NCBI GenBank assembly: GCA_030427505.1
Contig: JAUICH010000006.1
Location: 62,001-126,000 of the forward strand
Direction: 5' to 3'
Length of the DNA: 64,000 nt
From: Verrucomicrobiia bacterium
GTDB lineage: Bacteria > Verrucomicrobiota > Verrucomicrobiia > Verrucomicrobiales > DEV007
Shown: piece by piece, positions 49,577 to 61,945 of the stretch
Layout: each line of letters begins with the position of its first letter
Numbering within the stretch: position 1 is the stretch's first letter
Made by a program: the position numbers and the translations under genes
The notes under the pieces: generated by a model
Told to the model about the DNA's origin: nothing
The model's database searches: none
Seen by the model: only the letters and a program-made list of their open reading frames with translations

Positions 49577-51400
49577 GTGAGACTCCGCCTTCGCAAACGC
49601 AACCGGTCCGGCGCGCAAGACTCCAAAGCGAGCGGCGGCTGCCTGATCCTCTTCGGGCTGGTCTTTGGGGGAATGGGCACGCTGTTCCTGGTCCTGATGG
49701 TGCAGGATTTTTTGCGCAACGCGGAGAGCCAGTCCTGGCCGGAGGTGCCCTGCATGATCGAGTCGGCAACGATCTCCGACGACGCGAATTCGGACACGCC
49801 CTTCGAACTGCATGTGCGCTTCCGCTATGAGTGGGAGGGGAAGGAACGGGTCTCCGAACGCTACGGCCTGGACGCGGAGACGAGCGATGACTACGGCGAA
49901 CTGGCCGCTAAACGGCAGGCTCTGCTCTCTGGTCCGGGCCAGGTCTGTTACGTGGATCCGGAGAATCCCGAAGCCGGCGCGGTTCTGGAGCAGGGCTCGC
50001 TCCTGGTGGGACTGCTGGTGTTCTTCCCGCTGATCTTTGTCGCCATCGGAGTCTTTGTCATCATTCACGGATTCAAGACGCTGTTTCAAAAGAAGAAGGC
50101 CGGAATGGAGGCCGGAGACGATAGCGATCGCGAAAAGGCGCCTTTTTCGATCTCTTCGGCGGCAGTGAAGGAGAAGAGCTGGGTCGCTCCGGCCATGATC
50201 GTTCTCTTCTCCGTTTTCACTCTGGTGGGCAGCGGCATCCTGTTTCCCCTGGTGATCAATCCGGGGCTGGAATGGATGGACGCGCGGGACTGGGAGGAAA
50301 CGCCCTGCGAGGTCATCTGGAGCCGGGTGCGCACCCATACGGGGGACGACAGCACCACCTACAGCGCGGACATCTTTTTCAAATACCAGTTCCAGGGGCA
50401 GGAGTACCGCTCCAATCGCGTGGGCTTCTTTTCGGGATCGTCCAGCGGCTACCAGGGAAAGGCGGACAAGGTGGAGCAGTATTCCGCCGGCACGCGTCAT
50501 AGTTGCTACGTTGATCCGGGCAACCCATACCGGGCCGTGCTGGAACGGAAGCTGAGCGCGGCGATGCTCTTTGGGCTCATTCCGCTGATCTTTCTGATCA
50601 TTGGGGTGGGCGGGCTGGTGGGTTGCCTGATGGGAGTCTTTAAGGCGAAAGCCGCGGGAGGCGCGGGCATGCGGGGGAGTTCCGTCGTTAGTCGCGCGGC
50701 GCCGGCGTCCACGGGCTTTGGCCGCAGGGGTGGAGCGGTGTTCCACCAGCCCGAGTTGGAGGAGGTGGAAGGGGAAAAGGCCATGAAGCCGGGAGGCAGC
50801 CGGGTGACCACGGTGCTGGTGATGCTCTTCATTGGCCTGTTCTGGAACGGGATTGTTTCAGTGTTCGTCTGGCAACTCGTGGAGGGGTTTCAGCATGGGC
50901 GCGCGGACTGGTTCCTGATGCTGTTCCTGATACCCTTTGTGTTGATCGGCTTGCTGGTGATTTTCGGTTTCTTTTATTTCCTGCTGGCCATGTTCAATCC
51001 CCAGCCGGAACTGCGCCTGAAACCTGGCACCCTGAAGCTGGGGGAACCGGCCGCGCTGGCCTGGGTGATTCACGGCAACGCCGGACGGATTCAGAAATTG
51101 AGGATATTACTGAAGGGCACGGAGTCCGCCTCCTACCAGCGCGGCACCAGCCGCCACACGGACAGCGAGATCTTTTACGCGGCGGTGCTGTTCGAGGGGA
51201 ACCTGTCCCTGGAGTTTCGCAGCGGCATGGCCACGGTGACGGTTCCGGCGGACCTGATGCATACCCTGAACCTTTCGAATAACAAAGTGAAGTGGGAGAT
51301 TGAGGTGGAAGGACACATCCCCCTCTGGCCGGACGTCCGGGACACTCATGAAGTGAACGTCCTGCCCGCCCCGGTCCGGCACAGGACGAAAGGAATGTAA
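49577..51400 (+). CDS. double DUF3592 membrane protein with C-terminal beta domain
   Basis: A GTG start at 49577 gives 607 residues. Two DUF3592 modules follow each other (about 20-170 and 200-360). Each has helix, extracytoplasmic beta domain and helix, with paired motifs WPEVPCMIESATISDD / WEETPCEVIWSRVRTH and CYVDPENPEAGAVLEQG / CYVDPGNPYRAVLERK, so the gene arose by internal duplication. Two further helices and a C-terminal domain (PQPELRLKPGTLKLGEPAAL) of arrestin-like look complete it. DUF3592 has no known function. The arrestin-like gene follows after 16 bp. Confidence 0.8.
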   Translation: MRLRLRKRNRSGAQDSKASGGCLILFGLVFGGMGTLFLVLMVQDFLRNAESQSWPEVPCMIESATISDDANSDTPFELHVRFRYEWEGKERVSERYGLDAETSDDYGELAAKRQALLSGPGQVCYVDPENPEAGAVLEQGSLLVGLLVFFPLIFVAIGVFVIIHGFKTLFQKKKAGMEAGDDSDREKAPFSISSAAVKEKSWVAPAMIVLFSVFTLVGSGILFPLVINPGLEWMDARDWEETPCEVIWSRVRTHTGDDSTTYSADIFFKYQFQGQEYRSNRVGFFSGSSSGYQGKADKVEQYSAGTRHSCYVDPGNPYRAVLERKLSAAMLFGLIPLIFLIIGVGGLVGCLMGVFKAKAAGGAGMRGSSVVSRAAPASTGFGRRGGAVFHQPELEEVEGEKAMKPGGSRVTTVLVMLFIGLFWNGIVSVFVWQLVEGFQHGRADWFLMLFLIPFVLIGLLVIFGFFYFLLAMFNPQPELRLKPGTLKLGEPAALAWVIHGNAGRIQKLRILLKGTESASYQRGTSRHTDSEIFYAAVLFEGNLSLEFRSGMATVTVPADLMHTLNLSNNKVKWEIEVEGHIPLWPDVRDTHEVNVLPAPVRHRTKGM

Positions 51401-51416
51401 GAACCACGGATCGCTC

Positions 51417-51848
51417 ATGGCTGAGATCAAGATAACCACGGAGCTGGACAATCGGGTTTTTGTCCCCGGAGAGACCATCCGGGGAACCGTCGCCTGGGAA
51501 GCGGCGGCGGGAGATTCGTTGCACCCGGAAGTCCGGCTTTTCTATTTCACCCATGGTAAGGGCACCATGGACGTGGAAGTGGTAAAGACCGTGCCCTTTC
51601 CCCAAGCGGCATCGCGGGACACGCGGGCCTTCGAGTTCGCGGCGCCGGAGAGTCCGTACAGCTTTTCCGGGCGCCTGGTGTCGCTGGTGTGGGCCGTGGA
51701 AGCGGAACTGTGGTCCGGCGGGCCGGTGGACCGGGTGGAGTTGACAGTTTCTCCCAGCGGCAAGGAAGTCGAGCTGTATGCTCACGCGGAGGAGGAGCTC
51801 ATCCAGGCGCAGAAAAAGAAGCTATGGTTCAAGGTGGGAGGACGGTAG
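51417..51848 (+). CDS. arrestin-like (Spo0M-type) protein
   Basis: The 143-residue protein looks like a single arrestin-type beta sandwich. KITTELDNRVFVPGETIRGT is the opening strand pair, and FEFAAPESPYSFSGRLVSLV with WAVEAEL is the typical closing block. No signal peptide or membrane segment is present. The C-terminal domain of the preceding 607-residue protein has a similar build, so the two may interact or share ancestry. The family call is moderate. It starts 16 bp after that gene and is followed after 3 bp by the ATPase gene. Confidence 0.6.
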   Translation: MAEIKITTELDNRVFVPGETIRGTVAWEAAAGDSLHPEVRLFYFTHGKGTMDVEVVKTVPFPQAASRDTRAFEFAAPESPYSFSGRLVSLVWAVEAELWSGGPVDRVELTVSPSGKEVELYAHAEEELIQAQKKKLWFKVGGR

Positions 51849-51851
51849 CGG

Positions 51852-52463
51852 ATGACCATGCGTGGCGGCGGGCTGAGCGCCCGGGAAAATCCCTTTGCCG
51901 TGCAGCGGGTGGAACGCCTGCTGGTGTTCGAGCCCGCGTGGCTGGGTCTGAGCTGGGAAGAGATTCTGGCCCGGTTAGGGAAGCTGAACTACCGGGCTGC
52001 CGTGGTAGGCCCGCACGGCAGCGGCAAGACCACCTTTCTGGATGGGCTGGAGGAGAGGCTTAGTAAAGAGGGAATGAGCGTGACGCGTCTGCGGCTGAAT
52101 GACGAAAGCGGCGCCGAGTCAAAACGCCAGGCCGTCGAACGAGCCGGGGCGGCGGGTCCGAAAGATCTGCTGTTCTTCGACGGCGCGGAACAGCTGGGGC
52201 CCTGGGGCTGGTGGCGGCTGAACCGCGCGGCCCGCCTCGCGAAGGGCCTGATCCTAACCCAGCACCGGCCCGGCCGCCTGCCGACGCTTTTCAGAACGCG
52301 GGCCACGCCGGCCATGCTGGAAGCTTTTGCGAACACTCTCCTGGAAGGGCGGGACGCTGGAGCACGGCCATCTCCCGAGGAACTCCTGACACTCTTCCAA
52401 CACCACCGCGGAAATCTGCGGGAGGCTTTGTTGGGCTGCTACGATTTGATGGGGCGGCGGTAG
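51852..52463 (+). CDS. small P-loop ATPase
   Basis: The 203-residue protein has Walker A GPHGSGKTT (about 55-63), a plausible Walker B LLFFDGAEQLGPWGWW, and a C-terminal helical part (PSPEELLTLFQHHRGNLREA) resembling an AAA+ lid. The ATG is 3 bp after the previous stop, so it is certainly cotranscribed with the DUF3592 and arrestin-like genes. I cannot name a family with confidence. It could energise or switch a membrane complex made of its two partners (inference). Confidence 0.7.
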   Translation: MTMRGGGLSARENPFAVQRVERLLVFEPAWLGLSWEEILARLGKLNYRAAVVGPHGSGKTTFLDGLEERLSKEGMSVTRLRLNDESGAESKRQAVERAGAAGPKDLLFFDGAEQLGPWGWWRLNRAARLAKGLILTQHRPGRLPTLFRTRATPAMLEAFANTLLEGRDAGARPSPEELLTLFQHHRGNLREALLGCYDLMGRR

Positions 52464-52540: not shown

Positions 52541-53335
52541 TTACAACAGCCCGATGGGCTTCAGGACGTATTGGTCCAGAGCGAATTCCAGGGAATGGGG
52601 TTTTAGGCTTTCGATGCCGGCGAGGGCGCCCAGGATGAGTCCGGCGGAGAGGAGCATCCAAAGCACCGTCAGCGAAAGGCCACGGAACATGCCAATCCGA
52701 TACACCAGAGCGCTGATCGAGGAGAACAGGAGCAGGAAAATCGTGATCTGGAGCACGGAATGCCAAGTCAGGTAGCCGGTGTAAAAGTTGGCCCAAAGAT
52801 TCCGGCTGATGGCGATGGTGATTCCGGCATACACAAACCCGGCCAGCAGCGTGCCGAGGATCCAGAAAAAGACGCACCGGATGGCCCGGGGCAGGGACGT
52901 GCCGCGGCTGGGTGTCAGGACGATGGCGGTGATCCACAATGCGAGCAGCATGATTACCAGACTCCCGGCGAAGAGGGCGCCCATGGCGAACCCCAGGGGC
53001 CGCAGACGCTCTCCGGAGAAGTGTTCTCTGGCGGGCTCGTACCAGAACCGGATGGCGTTGAGGAGTTGCAGCTTGCTCTGAAAGTTCAGGTCCTGGGTGG
53101 GGAAGCCGTAATTCTTGTCGTCCGTGCCCCGGAGAATGAGCAATTTGTTTTCGTAGTCAAAGTCTTCCACCCAGCCCGCGAAGGTGGTGCCGTCGTGCTT
53201 CGTCCAGTCCGTGACAAAGTTGGAACTGGACACCAGGCGGCTTTCGGGACCCGCCTGCCGGACATTCTCTTCAGCCCGCAAGGACGGCGTGAAGAGGCAG
53301 AGGAGCAGGACCAGGAGCCTGGAGGAGAATTTCAT
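52541..53335 (-). CDS. membrane protein of three-paralog family, member 1
   Basis: ATG 53335 gives 264 residues (MKFSSRLLVLLLCLFTPSLR, signal peptide). Residues about 42-105 form an SHD1-like beta module (DWTKHDGTTFAGWVEDFDYE, LRGTDDKNYGFPTQDLNF). Three or four membrane helices follow (ALFAGSVIM region, AIRCVFFWILGTLLAG, ITIFLLLFSSISALVYRIGM, LTVLWMLLSAGLILGAL). The chain ends DQYVLKPIGLL. Members 2 (56356) and 3 (57259) share the module, the RIG motif and this tail. No named family is recognised. It is convergent with the P-loop ATPase gene. Confidence 0.8.
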   Translation of the reverse strand: MKFSSRLLVLLLCLFTPSLRAEENVRQAGPESRLVSSSNFVTDWTKHDGTTFAGWVEDFDYENKLLILRGTDDKNYGFPTQDLNFQSKLQLLNAIRFWYEPAREHFSGERLRPLGFAMGALFAGSLVIMLLALWITAIVLTPSRGTSLPRAIRCVFFWILGTLLAGFVYAGITIAISRNLWANFYTGYLTWHSVLQITIFLLLFSSISALVYRIGMFRGLSLTVLWMLLSAGLILGALAGIESLKPHSLEFALDQYVLKPIGLL

Positions 53336-53521
53336 CTGGCGAACGCTTGGCATATTCCGCTCCGGCTGGCAAGAGAGCATTGGGCAGAAGGGGAGGGAGG
53401 CAGAGAAGAACGGGGGAGAGGCCTTGATCGGTTAGGGGTTTTGTTAGCGTATCGAAGCTTGGGACGCCGGAAGGGGGGGGCAGCAGTTGACTCCTGAGCG
53501 GTGGTGTGAGGTGCCCTCCGG

Positions 53522-54079
53522 TTATCTCTGAGAAAGGTTACGCGGCTCGGTGGCCGAATCGGCGCTTTTTCGGGAGGCGAAAAAATGCCAGAGCATCAAC
53601 GCTCCCACCAAGGCGGCAAAGATGGCCGTCAGGCGATCCAGCTTGTTATAGTGCGGTTGAAGGTTGGCTCTCAGTTCCGGCAGGATTTCGGCTGGCCAGC
53701 CAAACACCCAACTGAAGATCCAGATGGAGGCGTAGCCCGCCAGGCAGGGGCCGAGCATGAAGAGCGGTATCCAGAAATAGACGGCCCGGTTTCGCTGACG
53801 CCGCAGGCGTTCCTCGTTCTCCCGCCAGCGCTCGGGAAACCGCTCTCGCCAGAGTCCGGACGCAAGGCGGTGGAACTCGCGGGCTCGGTCCAACGTCAAA
53901 CGGATCTTGATCCGGGAGCCGGAGAGGTCCCGGACTTCACCGGTTTCCAGGCGCCTCACCTCTTCCCAGGGAATCGACGCGATGGTATTCCCCTGGCGGC
54001 ATTCGGAGATGCCACCGCCGTCCAGGGTAAATTCGCTTTTTCGCGGGAGACACGAAGGAGAATGGAAGGTCTGGGTCAT
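53522..54079 (-). CDS. small membrane protein with PH-like N-terminal part
   Basis: The 185-residue product has about 85 beta-rich residues (SEFTLDGGGISECRQGNTIA, SIPWEEVRRLETGEVRDLSG) that suggest a PH-like or YcxB-like domain. An Arg-rich helix (RERFPERWRENEERLRRQRN) and two membrane helices follow (AVYFWIPLFMLGPCLAGYAS, LTAIFAALVGALMLWHFFA). I have no family name for it. Between it and the caspase remnant at 54275 lie 195 bp with no gene. Confidence 0.6.
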   Translation of the reverse strand: MTQTFHSPSCLPRKSEFTLDGGGISECRQGNTIASIPWEEVRRLETGEVRDLSGSRIKIRLTLDRAREFHRLASGLWRERFPERWRENEERLRRQRNRAVYFWIPLFMLGPCLAGYASIWIFSWVFGWPAEILPELRANLQPHYNKLDRLTAIFAALVGALMLWHFFASRKSADSATEPRNLSQR

Positions 54080-54274
54080 GATCTGGCGCCGGGCCCGGTT
54101 CCCTGTTTTTTAGCAACATAAGATCGTTCGCCCCGCGCGAGGATCAAGGTAAGCCGCCCGCGCTTTCTGAGTAAAGAGCGAAGAACCGGACGCGGTGTTA
54201 GCCGCCGGAGCCCAGTTGGAAACATAGGGTACCACAGCGGCGGGAGGGGAGATCGTAGTCCCGAACCGCGGAGG

Positions 54275-54601
54275 TCAGTAATCGGCGGCCAACTCCAGGA
54301 CGCAGCGGAAACCACGGGCTTTCGATTTGTAGGAATCCGCCAGGCTCCAGCGGTGCGAGGACCACAATTGCTCGGGGTCCCTTGTGGTCCAGTCGCTCCC
54401 TCTTGCCACGCTATGTGAATCCGATGTATCACGCTCACGCTGCGTCCTAACATCAGCCGCCTTCGCAGTAGTCTTGGCATCCACGGGTATCAGGTAGTTT
54501 TCTCCTTTTATCTCCACGCCATGACCGGCGAAGAAGAACAGGGCCGCTTCCTGGTCATTCGCTATCTTCCATGCTTGGGAAGTCTGGGTGAAGAAATGCC
54601 G
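54275..54601 (-). pseudogene. remnant of a second caspase-FGE gene
   Basis: The frame follows the stop codon of the intact caspase-FGE gene directly and in frame (TGA then CGG CAT TTC). It reads a caspase segment with the catalytic His (LFFFAGHGVEIKGENYLIPV), then jumps within 15 residues to an FGE-type C-terminus (DWTTRDPEQLWSSHR, SKARGFRCVLEL) before TGA at 54275. The caspase Cys half and nearly the whole FGE domain are missing. The sequence is divergent from the intact copy, so it is an old tandem duplicate that lost its 5' end and an internal block, rather than an assembly artefact. Confidence 0.8.
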
Positions 54602-56299
54602 TCAGTTGCCAGATTTTATCACCAAAGCCACCCGGAATCCGTAGGTGTCGTAGCGAAAGTCGGGTGCATACCTGTTGCGGAAGGAGGACCGGAGACCTTC
54701 CTCCGAGCTGTTGCCCCAAGAACCGCCCCGCAATACGCGGCGTTTCTTTTCCACGGACTCGTACCAGTCTTCACACCACTCGTAAACATTTCCCCCCAAG
54801 TCGAAGATGCCTCGTTCATTGGGCTCGTAGCTGCCCACCGGCGCCGTGTAAGGGTACAGGTCTCGATAGCCGGCAATCTTATACGAATTCGAACTCTCCT
54901 GACCGCTAAAATTACCTGCCCCTTCAGTTGGTGGCCAGGCGGTTCCCCACGGGTATACCCCTCCAATTCTGCCGTCCTTTCTCTCCGGTGAAGCGTCGGC
55001 CATTTCGCGTTCCCCAATGCCCACCGCGTAGCTCCACTCGAGATCCGTCGGCAGCCGATACTCGTCCTCTGGTCCGATCTGTCCCGCCGCCCGTTCCGTT
55101 TTCGTCAGCCAGGCGGAAAAGGCCTTTGCGTCGTCCCAATTCACATAGATCACCGGGTGGTCGGGCCCTGGGCACTTCTGCGCCTGGTCATTCCATTTCA
55201 TGTCGATTCCCGGGTTCTTGGCCGCGTAGGCCGCGTAATCCTTCAGGCGTGTTTCCCAGATAGAAAACAGCACCCGGCTTCCGTCCGTGTAGTCCAGCAC
55301 CGGCACGAACTTCATCCCCAGACCATTCTCGAAAGGCTTGTCGCTGGTGGCCTGGCGGGGCGTGTCTGTCTTTGAAGCTGAGGCCGCGGGCGCCGGAGCA
55401 GGGGACAGTGTGGGTACCATGGCACTTTCGCCATCACTGAGATTCGTGTTGGTATTCGTGCCAGGTAGAAAGGCAAAGTTTCCGTAGAAGCTGGAGTTCA
55501 TCCAGGGCTCCTGGCTGCCGGTGGACTGCCACACTTCGGTTCCCACGTTCTTGAATACTTTCTCGATCTCCAAGCCGGGCTTGAGCAGTTCGGTTTTCAA
55601 TACGCCACTGAAGGGGCTGTTGTGGCCTTTCCCATCTTTGGCGACTTGGCCGGGAGCGGCGGAAAACAGGAGAATGGTCCCGCGCGGAGTGGACCGCGGG
55701 GCGCTCAATCCGGCGGTCAGATTCCGGCCCCAGCCCCGGCCCAGGGGATTGTCCCGGCAGCAGTCCAGGATGACGATTTTCAGCCGGTCTTTTTCGGCCA
55801 TGGTGCCCATGACCTCATCCAGGGACACGGTGCGGTGCTTGACGAGGTGTTCCGCCTCGATCTCCGCGTCCACGGGCACCAGGTAGTTTTCTCCTCCCAG
55901 TTCCAGCCCATGTCCCGCGAAAAAGAACAGCGTCACTTTCGCATTGGCCGAGGCTTTCCGAAACGCGGTTAGTGCGCCTGACATGTCTTCGTGGCTCAGG
56001 TCGGTTCGCGCCGCGCCGCCCACGAGCTCGAAGCCGCATTGCTTCAGCGAAGCGGCCACGTCTCTGGCGTCCGCCGTGGGATTCTTCAGTGGATTGCCGT
56101 GCTGATAAGCCCCGTTCCCGATGACGAGCGCGACGCGTTCGGCGGCGTGAAGTCCGGTGGGCAAGGTGCCCAGCAGGAGGAGTAGCCACAATGATGGCAG
56201 GAGCCTCCGCGGAGGCCGCCGTCCGGCTATCCCGGCGGTAGTGATGGTTCCCATGAGCGCTTTGATTTCCCGGTTCAGGGGGGTATCGGCGTCCAGCAT
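54602..56299 (-). CDS. caspase (C14) - formylglycine-generating-enzyme-like fusion protein
   Basis: The 565-residue exported protein has a signal sequence near residues 30-52 (LLPSLWLLLLLGTLPTGLHA). The caspase-like domain (about 53-280) keeps the catalytic His in FFFAGHGLELGGENYLVPVD and the Cys in KIVILDCCRDNP. A Pro/Ala/Thr-rich linker leads to an FGE/SUMF1-type domain (about 335-565; YRLPTDLEWSYAVGIGEREM, GGNVYEWCEDWYE, RRVLRGGSWGNS). ATG 56254 is an alternative start. It is a likely periplasmic protease or adaptor; FGE-like domains in such fusions may act as binding modules. Paralogous membrane proteins flank it. Confidence 0.9.
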   Translation of the reverse strand: MLDADTPLNREIKALMGTITTAGIAGRRPPRRLLPSLWLLLLLGTLPTGLHAAERVALVIGNGAYQHGNPLKNPTADARDVAASLKQCGFELVGGAARTDLSHEDMSGALTAFRKASANAKVTLFFFAGHGLELGGENYLVPVDAEIEAEHLVKHRTVSLDEVMGTMAEKDRLKIVILDCCRDNPLGRGWGRNLTAGLSAPRSTPRGTILLFSAAPGQVAKDGKGHNSPFSGVLKTELLKPGLEIEKVFKNVGTEVWQSTGSQEPWMNSSFYGNFAFLPGTNTNTNLSDGESAMVPTLSPAPAPAASASKTDTPRQATSDKPFENGLGMKFVPVLDYTDGSRVLFSIWETRLKDYAAYAAKNPGIDMKWNDQAQKCPGPDHPVIYVNWDDAKAFSAWLTKTERAAGQIGPEDEYRLPTDLEWSYAVGIGEREMADASPERKDGRIGGVYPWGTAWPPTEGAGNFSGQESSNSYKIAGYRDLYPYTAPVGSYEPNERGIFDLGGNVYEWCEDWYESVEKKRRVLRGGSWGNSSEEGLRSSFRNRYAPDFRYDTYGFRVALVIKSGN

Positions 56300-56355
56300 G
56301 CCTTTTTATGCACGCTTGTTCAAGTTTCTCCTGGCCGCGTGGGCTGAGCGTGTTT

Positions 56356-57147
56356 TCAGAGCAGGCCCAGGGGCTTCAGGATGTAGCCATCCAGGGTGGT
56401 TTCCACCAGCTCGGTGCCGAAGACCAGGACGAAGAAGCCCAGGCCGAAGATGATGGCCAGGCTGATGACGAGCCACAGCGCAGTGAAGGCGACGGAACGG
56501 AGCAGCCCGATCCTGAAGGACAGGGCGGAAATACCGATGAAATAGAACAGGGGCAGGATATTGATGACGAAGGAATCCAGGCGATGCAGGGTGGGATCTG
56601 CATCCGGTGGCGGCCTGGCGAGGCCTCCGTAGGCGATCATGCGATAGGTCACGGATATCACCATGGACACGACCAGCCACAGGAACATGCAGAGGACGGT
56701 GCGCCCAAAGACTTTCTCTTTCACGGGTACCAGGATGAGGGCCACGACCCAGGTGGCGAAGGTCAACACCAGGAGATAAAGGCCGATGAAGACGAGCGCT
56801 ATCCGCAACAGGGCCATGAGCGAGCCTTCCGGCCAGTTGAGTTCCCGGCGCATCTGAAATAGTCCGCTGTCGGTCAGGAGCTGGATCTTGCTCCCGAAGC
56901 TGAGCCGTTCGGTGGCGACGCCGTAGTTTCGGCCATCGGCGCCCCGGAATTCCAGGGTGTGGCGGTCGAAATTGACCCCCACGAGCCAGCCTTCGAAGGA
57001 GTTGCCTTCCCGGTCGGTCCACTCCAGCAGGGGACGGTGTTCGGTGGCGGCCGCGAGGCCGGGGCCTGGCTCGGGCCCGGCTTGCGCGAACAGAGCCGGG
57101 GCTATGAGGCTCATGAATGCCGTTAGCCATCTGAAGACGGATCTCAT
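56356..57147 (-). CDS. membrane protein of three-paralog family, member 2
   Basis: The 263-residue protein starts with a signal peptide (FRWLTAFMSLIAPALFAQAG). An SHD1-like module spans about 35-95 (LEWTDREGNSFEGWLVGVNF, LEFRGADGRNYGVATERLSF). Helices follow (LRIALVFIGLYLLVLTFATW, TVLCMFLWLVVSMVISVTY, IGISALSFRIGLLRSVAFTA), and the chain ends DGYILKPLGLL. It aligns with members 1 and 3 over its full length. The caspase-FGE gene lies 56 bp beyond its stop on the same strand, so the two may be cotranscribed. Confidence 0.8.
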   Translation of the reverse strand: MRSVFRWLTAFMSLIAPALFAQAGPEPGPGLAAATEHRPLLEWTDREGNSFEGWLVGVNFDRHTLEFRGADGRNYGVATERLSFGSKIQLLTDSGLFQMRRELNWPEGSLMALLRIALVFIGLYLLVLTFATWVVALILVPVKEKVFGRTVLCMFLWLVVSMVISVTYRMIAYGGLARPPPDADPTLHRLDSFVINILPLFYFIGISALSFRIGLLRSVAFTALWLVISLAIIFGLGFFVLVFGTELVETTLDGYILKPLGLL

Positions 57148-57258
57148 TGGCTCAAGCTAGAAATATCCAAACATGCTGGCAAGGGGAATAAACGCCGTTG
57201 TGGGCGGAGGAAGGCTGGCGGATGCGTCCCCTTCCCGCGGGTGATTTGCCTGGAAGCT

Positions 57259-58050
57259 CTACAAGATTCCGAGAGGCTTCAGGATGTACTCGCTCAGGAC
57301 CTGGTCTCCCAGGTCGGGATTGACGTATTCTTGAAGCGCGTAGCCGATGCCGAAGTTCACCCCGGCGGTGACGATCACATAGACCACGAACAGGACGAGG
57401 GTCCTGCCGATGCCGATGCGGTACATGTGGGACAGGGTCCAAAGAAAGACCAGCAGGGCCAGGACGATCATGCCCAGGGAACCGTAACGGGTCATGTTCG
57501 CGCCCAGCTCGGAATCCGGGTCGGAGCCAGCGACCATGGCGATGGTGATGGCCGCGTAGACAAAGACAACCACGAGCATTCCGAGGAAGGTCCACAGCAG
57601 ACACAGAAAGGCGCGAAGGATGGACCGGCCACGCGGCTGGGCGGCGATGAGGGCGGAGAGCCACAGGGTGATGGTCTTCAAGATCAGCCCGCCCAGGAAG
57701 ACGATGGCGAGGTAGATGCCCAGCTGTTGCAGCCCTTGCTGGGGCCATTCTTCGTTTTCGTGGTCTTTCCAGAAGCCTTCGGTATCCAGCATCTGGAGCT
57801 TGCTCGCGGCGGACAGATCTTCCGCGGGCACGGCGATGGAGGTGCCGTCCGTGCCCTGGATGAGGACCTGCTTGCTGTCAAAGTCATAGCCCTTGACGTG
57901 TCCTTCGACGACTGACCCGTCTTTCTTGGTCCATTCCTGGGGTTCCGGCTGGCCCGAGAACACGCCGGTGTCGCCGCCATTGTCCCGCGCGAACAGCGGG
58001 GTGGCGAAAAAGCCGAAGGAGATGGCGAGCAGTAGGGGGGCAGTTTTCAT
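57259..58050 (-). CDS. membrane protein of three-paralog family, member 3
   Basis: From ATG 58050 the product has 263 residues; a GTG at 58080 would add ten. The signal peptide is MKTAPLLLAISFGFFATPLF. The SHD1-like module spans about 40-95 (EWTKKDGSVVEGHVKGYDFD, IQGTDGTSIAVPAEDLSAA). Helices include YLAIVFLGGLILKTITLWLS, LLWTFLGMLVVVFVYAAITI and MIVLALLVFLWTLSHMYRIG. The end is SEYILKPLGIL. It shares order and tail with members 1 and 2 but differs in the middle, so the family is old. Its function is unknown. Confidence 0.8.
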   Translation of the reverse strand: MKTAPLLLAISFGFFATPLFARDNGGDTGVFSGQPEPQEWTKKDGSVVEGHVKGYDFDSKQVLIQGTDGTSIAVPAEDLSAASKLQMLDTEGFWKDHENEEWPQQGLQQLGIYLAIVFLGGLILKTITLWLSALIAAQPRGRSILRAFLCLLWTFLGMLVVVFVYAAITIAMVAGSDPDSELGANMTRYGSLGMIVLALLVFLWTLSHMYRIGIGRTLVLFVVYVIVTAGVNFGIGYALQEYVNPDLGDQVLSEYILKPLGIL

Positions 58051-58175
58051 GGGAGTCAGGCTAGAGAGGTTGCGGTTCACTTTGCAAGGAAGGAAAAAAG
58101 TGACGAAACAGGGAAGTGTTGGCGGAAAGCAGACACAATTTGCGAAATCGGCGCCGCTTCTGTATCGTTAAAAAA

Positions 58176-58748: not shown

Positions 58749-60002
58749 ATGAAATGGCTAACTTTTATCCTAATACCTCCACTGCTTTCCCTTTCGCCGG
58801 TTCCTGCCGGGGCGGGGGAGAGTGAATCACCCTCCTTTACGCTGGAGGCCGCGCTGGCTCGCGGGCTGGAAAACAGTCCCGCGCTGCGCGCCGCCTACGA
58901 GCGTTACCAGGCCGCGCTCCAGAAGGAACCGCAGGCCCGGTCTTTGCCGGACCCACAAGTGTCCTTCACGCACTTCGTCTGCCAGGTGCAGACCCGGACA
59001 GGACCCAGCGAGAACGTTTACATGGTTTCCCAGACCCTCCCGTGGTTTGGTAAGCTGAAGCTGAAGGCGGAGGCCGCGAGCCATGAAGCGCGGGCGGCCC
59101 ACTTCGCCTATGAGGCGGCGCGGCTGAAGCTGTTCCGCGAGATTGGCCGGAACTACTGGGAGTATGCCTACCTGGCGGAACGCACCCGGCTGGTGGACGA
59201 ATCGCTGGACCTGCTGGACCGCTTGAAAGAAGTGGTGAACGAACGGGTTCGCACCGGGGGCAGTGCCCAGGAACGGCTCCGGCTGGAACTGGAAACGGGG
59301 CGGCTGGACAATGTGAAAACCGGCCTGGCGGCGGAGCGGGTGAAGCTGAACGCGGCGCTGCTGGCTTCCATGGGCAAGGCCGGCGCCGGTGCGGATCTAC
59401 TCCCCTGGCCGAAGCTGAACGATGCGGTGCCCGCCGGGAAAGATGCGTCCGTCCTGGCTGGAGAGGTCAGCGAGAGGCACCCTGCGCTGAAGGCCCTGGA
59501 CCTGCAAAGGCAGGCGGCGGAGGCGCGGCTCCGGCTGGCGAAGAAGAGCGCCATCCCGGACCCCACGATTGGCGCGACGGTGAACGAAATTGGCGACAAT
59601 GGCGAAAACGCTGTTGGCTTCACGGTGGGTTTCAAGATTCCCCTCTGGGGTAAAAAATACCGCGCCGAACGCGCCGAGGCCGAGGCCATGGAGCGCGCCG
59701 TCCTTGCCGAAAGGGAGGAGACGGCCCTGCGGCTGGAGGAGGAACTGGCCGCCGCCGTGAAGATGCTGGAGTCCGCCTCCGAACGCGCGACGCGCTACCG
59801 GGATGAACTCCTGCCTACCGCACGGGAACTCATCGAGGTGAGTGAGACTTCCTACGCGGGCGGCAAGTTGAGCCTGCTGGACCTGATTGATGCCGAGCGG
59901 GCGCTTCTGGAAACCGAACAAAGCTACTGGCGCGCGATGGCGGACGCCCAGCAGGCGCTGGTGATACTGGACACGCTGTCGGTCAATTTACCGGAGAGCT
60001 AA
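58749..60002 (+). CDS. TolC-like outer membrane efflux protein (CusC-like)
   Basis: The 417-residue product begins with a signal peptide (LTFILIPPLLSLSPVPAGAG). Two TolC repeats follow: the first around 28-200 (LEAALARGLENSPALRAAYE, VSQTLPWFGKLKLKAEAASH), the second around 240-415 (RHPALKALDLQRQAAEARLR, FTVGFKIPLWGKKYRAERAE). The last helix ends LLDLIDAERALLETEQSYWR. It forms the outer channel of a tripartite pump. The adaptor gene starts 2 bp after the stop and the pump gene follows. Confidence 0.93.
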   Translation: MKWLTFILIPPLLSLSPVPAGAGESESPSFTLEAALARGLENSPALRAAYERYQAALQKEPQARSLPDPQVSFTHFVCQVQTRTGPSENVYMVSQTLPWFGKLKLKAEAASHEARAAHFAYEAARLKLFREIGRNYWEYAYLAERTRLVDESLDLLDRLKEVVNERVRTGGSAQERLRLELETGRLDNVKTGLAAERVKLNAALLASMGKAGAGADLLPWPKLNDAVPAGKDASVLAGEVSERHPALKALDLQRQAAEARLRLAKKSAIPDPTIGATVNEIGDNGENAVGFTVGFKIPLWGKKYRAERAEAEAMERAVLAEREETALRLEEELAAAVKMLESASERATRYRDELLPTARELIEVSETSYAGGKLSLLDLIDAERALLETEQSYWRAMADAQQALVILDTLSVNLPES

Positions 60003-60004
60003 GC

Positions 60005-61945
60005 ATGAAAGATTTCTTTATGAAACCCTGGGTCCTCGCCGGTGGCGGGGTGCTGGTGGGTCTGGTGCTGGCGCTCGTCCTTTTCCGGGGCGGCGGCAAC
60101 GGCGGCCACGAGCACTCCCACGCGGATGGAGGAGCGGCCACGGCTGCCAAAGGCGAAGTTTGGACCTGTGCCATGCACCCGCAGATCCGCCAGAACGAAC
60201 CGGGGAACTGCCCCATCTGCGGCATGGCGCTGACGCCCGCCAGCCAGACCCATACGGAAACCCTGACAAGCACCCAGTATGGCTTGTCGGAAGCGGCCAA
60301 GGCGCTGGCGGAGATCGAGACCGAACCCGTCGAACGGCGGCTGCCGGAGGCCCACGTCCGCCTGTTTGGAAAAGCGGCCTATGACGAGACGCGGCTGCGG
60401 ACGCTGTCGGCGCGCTTCCCGGGCCGGATCGACCGGCTGTATATCGACTTCACGGGCATCGAAGTCAGCCAGGGCGATCACCTGGCGAACATCTACAGCC
60501 CGGAACTGCTGAGCGCCCAGAGCGAACTGCTCGCCGCGCTGCGCTTTGAATCCCGGAGCCAGGGAGCGGACCTGGCGCGGGAGAAACTGCGCCTGTGGGG
60601 GCTGAGCGACGAGCGCATTTCCTCTATCGAGAAGTCCGGCAAGGCCTCCGATAACCTGGACATCGACGCGCCCATCGGCGGCGTGGTGATCCAGAAACAC
60701 ATCAACGAAGGCGACTATGTAAACACCGGCACGAAGATGTTTCAGATTGCCGATCTGGACCGCGTCTGGGTCATGCTGGATGCCTATGAATCCGACCTGC
60801 CGTGGGTGCGCTTCGGGCAGCATGTGAAGTTCACCGTGGCCGGTCTGCCCGGGAAAACCTTTGAAGGGCAAGTGGCCTTCATCGATCCGCAGCTCGATCC
60901 CCAGACGCGTACCGTGAAAGTGCGGGTGAACGCGGAGAACGAACGCGGCATGCTGAAGCCCGGCATGTTTGTGACGGCCGAAGTCGTCGCCAACATCGCG
61001 CGCGACGGACGGGTCCTGGCGCCCGAGTTGGCTGGGAAATGGATCAGCCCCATGCACCCGGAGATCGTGAAAGACGCGCCCGGCACCTGCGACATCTGCG
61101 GGATGAAACTCGTCCGGGCTGAGGAGCTGGGGTATGTCGTTCCTGACAAAAACACCCAGCTTCCCCTGATGGTCCCGGAAAGCGCCGTACTCCAGACCGG
61201 GAAGCGGGCGCTGGTCTATGTGGAGACCCAGACCGACCCGCACCCCATCTATGAAGCGCGGGAGATCGTGCTGGGCCCGAAGGCCCAGGGCTACTTCATG
61301 GTGAAGGAAGAGGGGAGCGACTTGAAGGAGGGCGAAAAGGTTGTCAGCCAGGGCGCGTTTAAGATCGACAGCGCCATGCAGATCGCCGGGAAAGACAGCA
61401 TGATGAACCGGAAGGATGAAGCCGACCCGCGTCTCCAACTGCCGGAAGCCATGAGGCCGGCCTACACTCGCCTCTTCGAGACCTATGAAGCCCTTCACGC
61501 CGCGCTGGCGGCGGACGATGAGACTGAGTCGAAAAAAGCAGCCACGGCCTTTGCCGAAGCCTGGAAAGCGGTGGACACGGCGGCGCTGGACGAAGCCGCG
61601 AAGGCTGCCTGGGACGAACTGGCCGCCGCGCTGACCAAGGCCGCGCCGGAAGCCGCCGGGGCGGGAGACATGGAGGCGCTGCGGCAAGCCTTCGATGTTG
61701 TGAGCCAGGGTATGATCCAACTGGCGCGCCGCTTTGGCCCGCCCGGAGAAGGAGACGCTTACGTGGTGCACTGCCCCATGGCCTTTGGCAGCCAGGCGGC
61801 GGAGTGGCTGCAAAACGTGCCCGCGATTTCCAATCCCTATCTGGGCGCGAAGATGCCCCGCTGTGGAGAGGTGACGGAGACGCTAAGCGTGGTGGCTCCC
61901 GAAGCGAGGCTGAAAGGTGTTCACCAGGAAAAGCACGTTCACTGA
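60005..61945 (+). CDS. CusB-like efflux adaptor with heavy-metal binding domains
   Basis: The 646-residue periplasmic adaptor starts 2 bp after the TolC-like stop. A membrane anchor (PWVLAGGGVLVGLVLALVLF) is followed by a heavy-metal binding domain, WTCAMHPQIRQNEPGNCPIC (residues 53-72). The membrane-fusion core runs from AEIETEPVERRLPEAHVRLF to LAPELAGK, with the lipoyl-like segment VVIQKHINEGDYVNTGTKMF. A second metal domain, WISPMHPEIVKDAPGTCDIC, begins at residue 346. A C-terminal region from about 588 (HCPMAFGSQAAEWL) looks like a third, DUF3347-like metal domain. It bridges pump and channel in Cu/Ag-type efflux. Confidence 0.93.
   Translation: MKDFFMKPWVLAGGGVLVGLVLALVLFRGGGNGGHEHSHADGGAATAAKGEVWTCAMHPQIRQNEPGNCPICGMALTPASQTHTETLTSTQYGLSEAAKALAEIETEPVERRLPEAHVRLFGKAAYDETRLRTLSARFPGRIDRLYIDFTGIEVSQGDHLANIYSPELLSAQSELLAALRFESRSQGADLAREKLRLWGLSDERISSIEKSGKASDNLDIDAPIGGVVIQKHINEGDYVNTGTKMFQIADLDRVWVMLDAYESDLPWVRFGQHVKFTVAGLPGKTFEGQVAFIDPQLDPQTRTVKVRVNAENERGMLKPGMFVTAEVVANIARDGRVLAPELAGKWISPMHPEIVKDAPGTCDICGMKLVRAEELGYVVPDKNTQLPLMVPESAVLQTGKRALVYVETQTDPHPIYEAREIVLGPKAQGYFMVKEEGSDLKEGEKVVSQGAFKIDSAMQIAGKDSMMNRKDEADPRLQLPEAMRPAYTRLFETYEALHAALAADDETESKKAATAFAEAWKAVDTAALDEAAKAAWDELAAALTKAAPEAAGAGDMEALRQAFDVVSQGMIQLARRFGPPGEGDAYVVHCPMAFGSQAAEWLQNVPAISNPYLGAKMPRCGEVTETLSVVAPEARLKGVHQEKHVH

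Follow-up and report, generated by a model that had tools for sequence, protein, structure and literature searches.

The window (the whole 64,000-nucleotide stretch of Verrucomicrobiia bacterium contig JAUICH010000006.1 that we analysed) carries three related genes for small membrane proteins, listed here with their parts and with the sequences between them; the basis of each assignment is given in brackets.

52541..53335, minus strand: family member 1 (P0001), 264 amino acids, with signal peptide, SHD1-like module, four transmembrane (TM) helices and tail (ORF list, alignment)
53057..53212, minus strand: SHD1-like module of member 1 (alignment to member 3, AlphaFold2)
52544..52564, minus strand: tail LKPIGLL of member 1 (sequence)
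53522..54079, minus strand: 185-amino-acid protein located between the caspase gene and member 1, with hydrophobic segments but without a family match (Pfam/NCBIfam)
54461..54568, minus strand: remnant of another caspase gene, sharing 56% identity over 36 amino acids with the caspase-FGE protein alongside (sequence comparison)
54602..56299, minus strand: caspase (PF00656) and FGE-sulfatase (PF03781) protein, between members 2 and 1 (Pfam)
56356..57147, minus strand: family member 2 (P0002), 263 amino acids (ORF list, alignment)
56872..57027, minus strand: SHD1-like module of member 2 (alignment to member 3, AlphaFold2)
56359..56379, minus strand: tail LKPLGLL of member 2 (sequence)
57259..58050, minus strand: family member 3 (P0003), 263 amino acids (ORF list, alignment)
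57784..57939, minus strand: SHD1-like module of member 3, model strands 48-85 and helix 91-99 (AlphaFold2, fold searches)
57262..57282, minus strand: tail LKPLGIL of member 3 (sequence)

The three open reading frames of 264, 263 and 263 codons are present as first reported, all on the minus strand, and their ends (DQYVLKPIGLL in member 1, DGYILKPLGLL in member 2 and SEYILKPLGIL in member 3) are exactly as read before. Member 1 is counted here from the methionine used in the preliminary description, its open reading frame opening at 53380; that of member 3 opens upstream, at a GTG at 58080. The architecture proposed for them, a signal peptide, an EWT..DG module and several membrane helices, is backed by alignment, by hydrophobic-segment counts (four membrane helices) and by two AlphaFold2 models. 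P0002 and P0003 are 29% and 34% identical to P0001, respectively, in pairwise alignment; the three are genuine paralogues. Promoter and terminator scans gave no signal above shuffled sequence. On the plus strand just beyond member 1 (49577-52463) lie genes for a DUF3592 protein, a 143-amino-acid protein without clear family and a P-loop protein, and at 58749-61945, also on the plus strand, the sequences of the open reading frames suggest an outer-membrane efflux protein and a metal efflux adaptor that bears heavy-metal-binding motifs.

Judged by sequence, the three proteins define a hitherto undescribed family. Each has a signal peptide followed by an SHD1-like barrel, four hydrophobic helices and a P-x-G tail. 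Pfam and NCBIfam contain no model that matches the three convincingly, PHROGs gives no match, and of the 22 aligned members at most 2 are matched by any one Pfam model, so the earlier statement that no described family has such a build stands. Scattered weak Pfam matches of single members (MFS, LSM12 and others) were not convincing as a family assignment. Solved structures searched by sequence yielded no relative at E values up to 1, and the plasmid search found no copies of the family.

A profile of the three window proteins, the search that had been suggested for them, recovered a fourth copy in their own genome (G000:C45). This copy (L009) carries a short repeat, KLDSDRKLDSRQLDSDRKLDSS, between the signal peptide and the module. 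Within the same GTDB family, the first profile search gave a match in 26 of 75 genomes, one of them an unrelated SHD1 protein, and further genomes were matched with a profile of genus g2. Profile scans of genome contigs returned no relative for A1 and nine loci for A3. In samples of 388 genomes from the phylum and 387 from the order, full-length matches were confined to the same GTDB family; outside it the matches were partial, mostly to the SHD1-like module alone. Because the own-genome and family-level matches run end to end, we count these proteins as members of the undescribed family. The member set comprises 43 sequences, all from one family-level group of Verrucomicrobiales, and the named relatives come from metagenome-assembled genomes labelled Verrucomicrobiales, Verrucomicrobia or Akkermansiaceae. 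In the tree, one clade (support 98/97) holds the members linked to plsY-gpsA; a second group holds the window copies, the second and third copies of g11 and the copies of g18. The three window copies and the fourth own-genome copy form one clade (100/99), and on this tree the window copies are part of a genome-specific, four-copy expansion of the second subfamily.

Both AlphaFold2 models (input alignments of 12 sequences; mean pLDDT 75.6 and 80.3) show a small barrel, four membrane helices and a tail that forms an ordered helix. With VIA-align, the best PDB match of both was the SHD1 domain of Sla1, 2HBP, at Z 6.6 and rmsd 2.5 with 58 of 66 residues aligned for one model and Z 6.8 and rmsd 2.9 with 63 of 66 aligned for the other; a Z under 8 is modest, and these values therefore indicate fold likeness and are not proof of descent. 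Foldseek also placed 2HBP first for one model; for the other, it was absent from the best 50 matches listed. These results bear out the description of the module as SHD1-like. At E values up to 1, PF03983 itself matched neither the three proteins nor any of the 22 aligned members, and the three are absent from the own-genome matches to PF03983 at E 0.01 or below. A sequence link runs through intermediates: the family profile finds signal-peptide-linked modules in other Verrucomicrobiota (E 1e-9 to 1e-4), and 3 of 8 such modules tested pass the Pfam SHD1 cut-off. The family thus shares the SHD1 fold in its N-terminal module but differs from SHD1 (PF03983) in being unmatched by that model and in joining the module to a membrane domain of four helices and to a conserved tail. 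For the four-helix part no clear match of fold emerged, and the fold searches gave no hint of an enzyme or transporter. Matches of the helical part to DgkA-like structures were weak (Z 4.4-5.8, rmsd 4.4-6.8) and were discounted, because helical bundles give such scores by chance.

Next, we consider the protein tail, which had been described as invariant. Across the three window proteins, 42 of 250 ungapped alignment columns are invariant, against 7 among the final 12 (hypergeometric p = 0.001) and 5 among the final 8 (p = 0.004), the latter being the maximum of all 8-column windows; the terminal eight residues are indeed nearly fixed in the trio. The tail codons of the three genes differ by synonymous changes, so that the likeness is kept at the protein level and not by recent copying; selection on the protein is the likely cause. 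The tail is also conserved in orthologues: across the 43 members it takes the form hydrophobic-x-P-x-G-hydrophobic, with P in 93% and G in 91%. LKPxGxL as a fixed motif holds for its proline and glycine but not for its lysine, which is retained only in the window copies and a few other members and lacks conservation family-wide. Similarly, the motif forms the C terminus of the three window proteins, but in 28 of the 43 members 2 to about 45 residues follow the motif. The expectation that the last eight residues would be the most conserved block is partly borne out: at 2.40 bits per column the tail block ties with TM1 (2.41) for the best 8-residue window of the 43-member alignment. In three members of one subclade (L022, L026 and L069; PVGLIENPNPFQ, PVGLIDDPNPFH) an NPF tripeptide follows the tail motif, which may be chance; NPFxD peptides are the ligand of yeast Sla1 SHD1.

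The tail had been taken for a functional signal or binding peptide. A short linear signal of this kind, with a partner protein recognising the C terminus as a sorting or docking peptide, would explain why the motif ranks among the most conserved blocks of 43 divergent proteins and why nearly all copies of the window's own subfamily end at it. We nevertheless regard it as unlikely: most members run past the motif, which also disfavours a C-terminal sorting signal in particular, the motif only equals TM1 in conservation, its lysine varies, and AlphaFold2 predicts the tail as the end of an ordered helix (pLDDT about 77-90). Because the tail is modelled as part of that helix, it more probably serves as a structural cap than in sorting, and for a P-x-G motif on the periplasmic side a capping role fits better than that of a free peptide. 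In the second model the VIA-align alignment to 2HBP runs to the protein's last residue, and the modelling gives a weak hint that the tail may lie near the SHD1 barrel or insert into the module.

The mean number of lysines and arginines is 2.09 in the TM1-TM2 loop, 1.07 in the TM3-TM4 loop and 0.19 in the TM2-TM3 loop, and acidic residues outnumber basic ones in the tail. By the positive-inside rule, these loop charges place both module and tail in the periplasm, and the SHD1 barrel and tail are accordingly predicted to face that compartment. Across the 43 members, the most conserved columns are a tryptophan in TM1, a tryptophan in the module, two tyrosines in the membrane part and the tail proline and glycine; conservation is strong for W, Y, F, P and G, for basic K70 and K/R94 and for acidic D/E259. 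The family alignment contains no conserved histidine or cysteine and no catalytic-looking column. As conserved polar positions are few and conserved histidine and cysteine are absent, an enzyme is unlikely.

A functional lead came from the neighbours of relatives of the window proteins. PlsY acylates glycerol-3-phosphate and GpsA makes it. Of the 34 member-bearing genomes counted in genera g2, g8, g9 and g11, 27 have plsY, gpsA and the family gene in succession on one strand (extra copies are excluded from this count, as is G058 of g9, whose only copy lies elsewhere); in the remaining 7, all of g2, the gene is elsewhere or gpsA was not seen adjoining. The genes flanking this unit change from genus to genus; in the nine g2 loci that were read, waaA (Kdo transferase) and rsmD lie upstream of it (plsY, gpsA, waaA and rsmD identified by NCBIfam). 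In four g11 loci (L098, L100, L101 and L102) a second copy stands in tandem directly behind the operon copy and falls, in the tree, on the side of the window copies. The window copies themselves do not adjoin plsY-gpsA; in their genome plsY-gpsA lies at a contig end, with no family gene visible in the remaining 187 bases. The position of the sister-subfamily gene behind plsY-gpsA is what points to phosphatidic acid and envelope assembly.

Lying in one operon may mean no more than being expressed together. The family gene could be only a passenger behind plsY and gpsA, with a task in the envelope unrelated to theirs, such as anchoring a periplasmic protein to the membrane; this would suit a fold without enzyme or transporter hint and the location of several members, all window copies included, away from the operon. 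We consider this unlikely, though worth keeping in mind, as the linkage holds across four genera even though the other neighbours change.

The window itself suggests a different partner. Every gene between 58050 and 52541 is on the same strand; the caspase-FGE gene and the caspase remnant stand between family copies, and the copies might act with the interposed caspase-FGE protein in an envelope stress or proteolysis module. In a published account, SHD1 occurs in exported bacterial proteins with varied partner domains, as in the present family, and bacterial extracellular SH3-fold domains occur in caspase-containing architectures and together with SHD1 (PMC5906684). The partners named in the passage concerned are caspase, zincin, beta-lactamase, WD40, EF-hand and TPR, unlike the multi-helix membrane domain of the family, which is not named there (PMC5906684). 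Among the neighbours annotated at other member loci, however, no caspase-like cluster recurs, whereas plsY and gpsA do, and we judge a caspase partnership improbable.

Returning to the link with lipid synthesis, E. coli PlsY has been reported to interact with YejM (PbgA), an inner-membrane protein that regulates LPS synthesis (PMC11633183). Such a tie between PlsY and an inner-membrane protein that has a periplasmic domain offers a possible working analogy, with no kinship claimed. The family and its architecture have good support; from gene order and this E. coli interaction we infer a role in lipid synthesis, one that would reach the window copies through kinship alone. The periplasmic domain of YejM is much larger than that of the family.

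Taken together, the family proteins probably help to build or monitor the cell envelope, and we infer that they are likely non-enzymatic membrane accessories or sensors of envelope lipid synthesis. Our overall reading, non-enzymatic inner-membrane accessory proteins of envelope lipid assembly whose P-x-G tail is a structural cap, is put forward tentatively, with somewhat less than even confidence. Under this accessory-protein reading, the sister-subfamily protein would be made together with PlsY and GpsA, and its helices would probably bind PlsY or another membrane enzyme. The SHD1 barrel, positioned by the tail helix, would bind or sense a ligand on the outer side of the inner membrane; the tail would cap the periplasmic face structurally and would be no free signal. 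The window trio and the fourth copy would represent a local expansion, probably at work in the same envelope process but alongside different partners. A more specific version, speculative and improbable as it stands, makes the protein a sensor: a periplasmic SHD1 barrel on a four-helix bundle, with its own P-x-G tail as latch, would, in Verrucomicrobiales, couple phosphatidic-acid synthesis by PlsY/GpsA to the condition of the outer leaflet, and would have been duplicated and re-deployed in the window's genome.

A family without a model in Pfam, NCBIfam or PHROGs therefore gains a first functional lead in its recurrent place behind plsY-gpsA. If this lead is right, the family would provide a small candidate protein for studying the coupling of phospholipid supply to envelope assembly in Verrucomicrobia, bacteria far from the well-studied enteric species.
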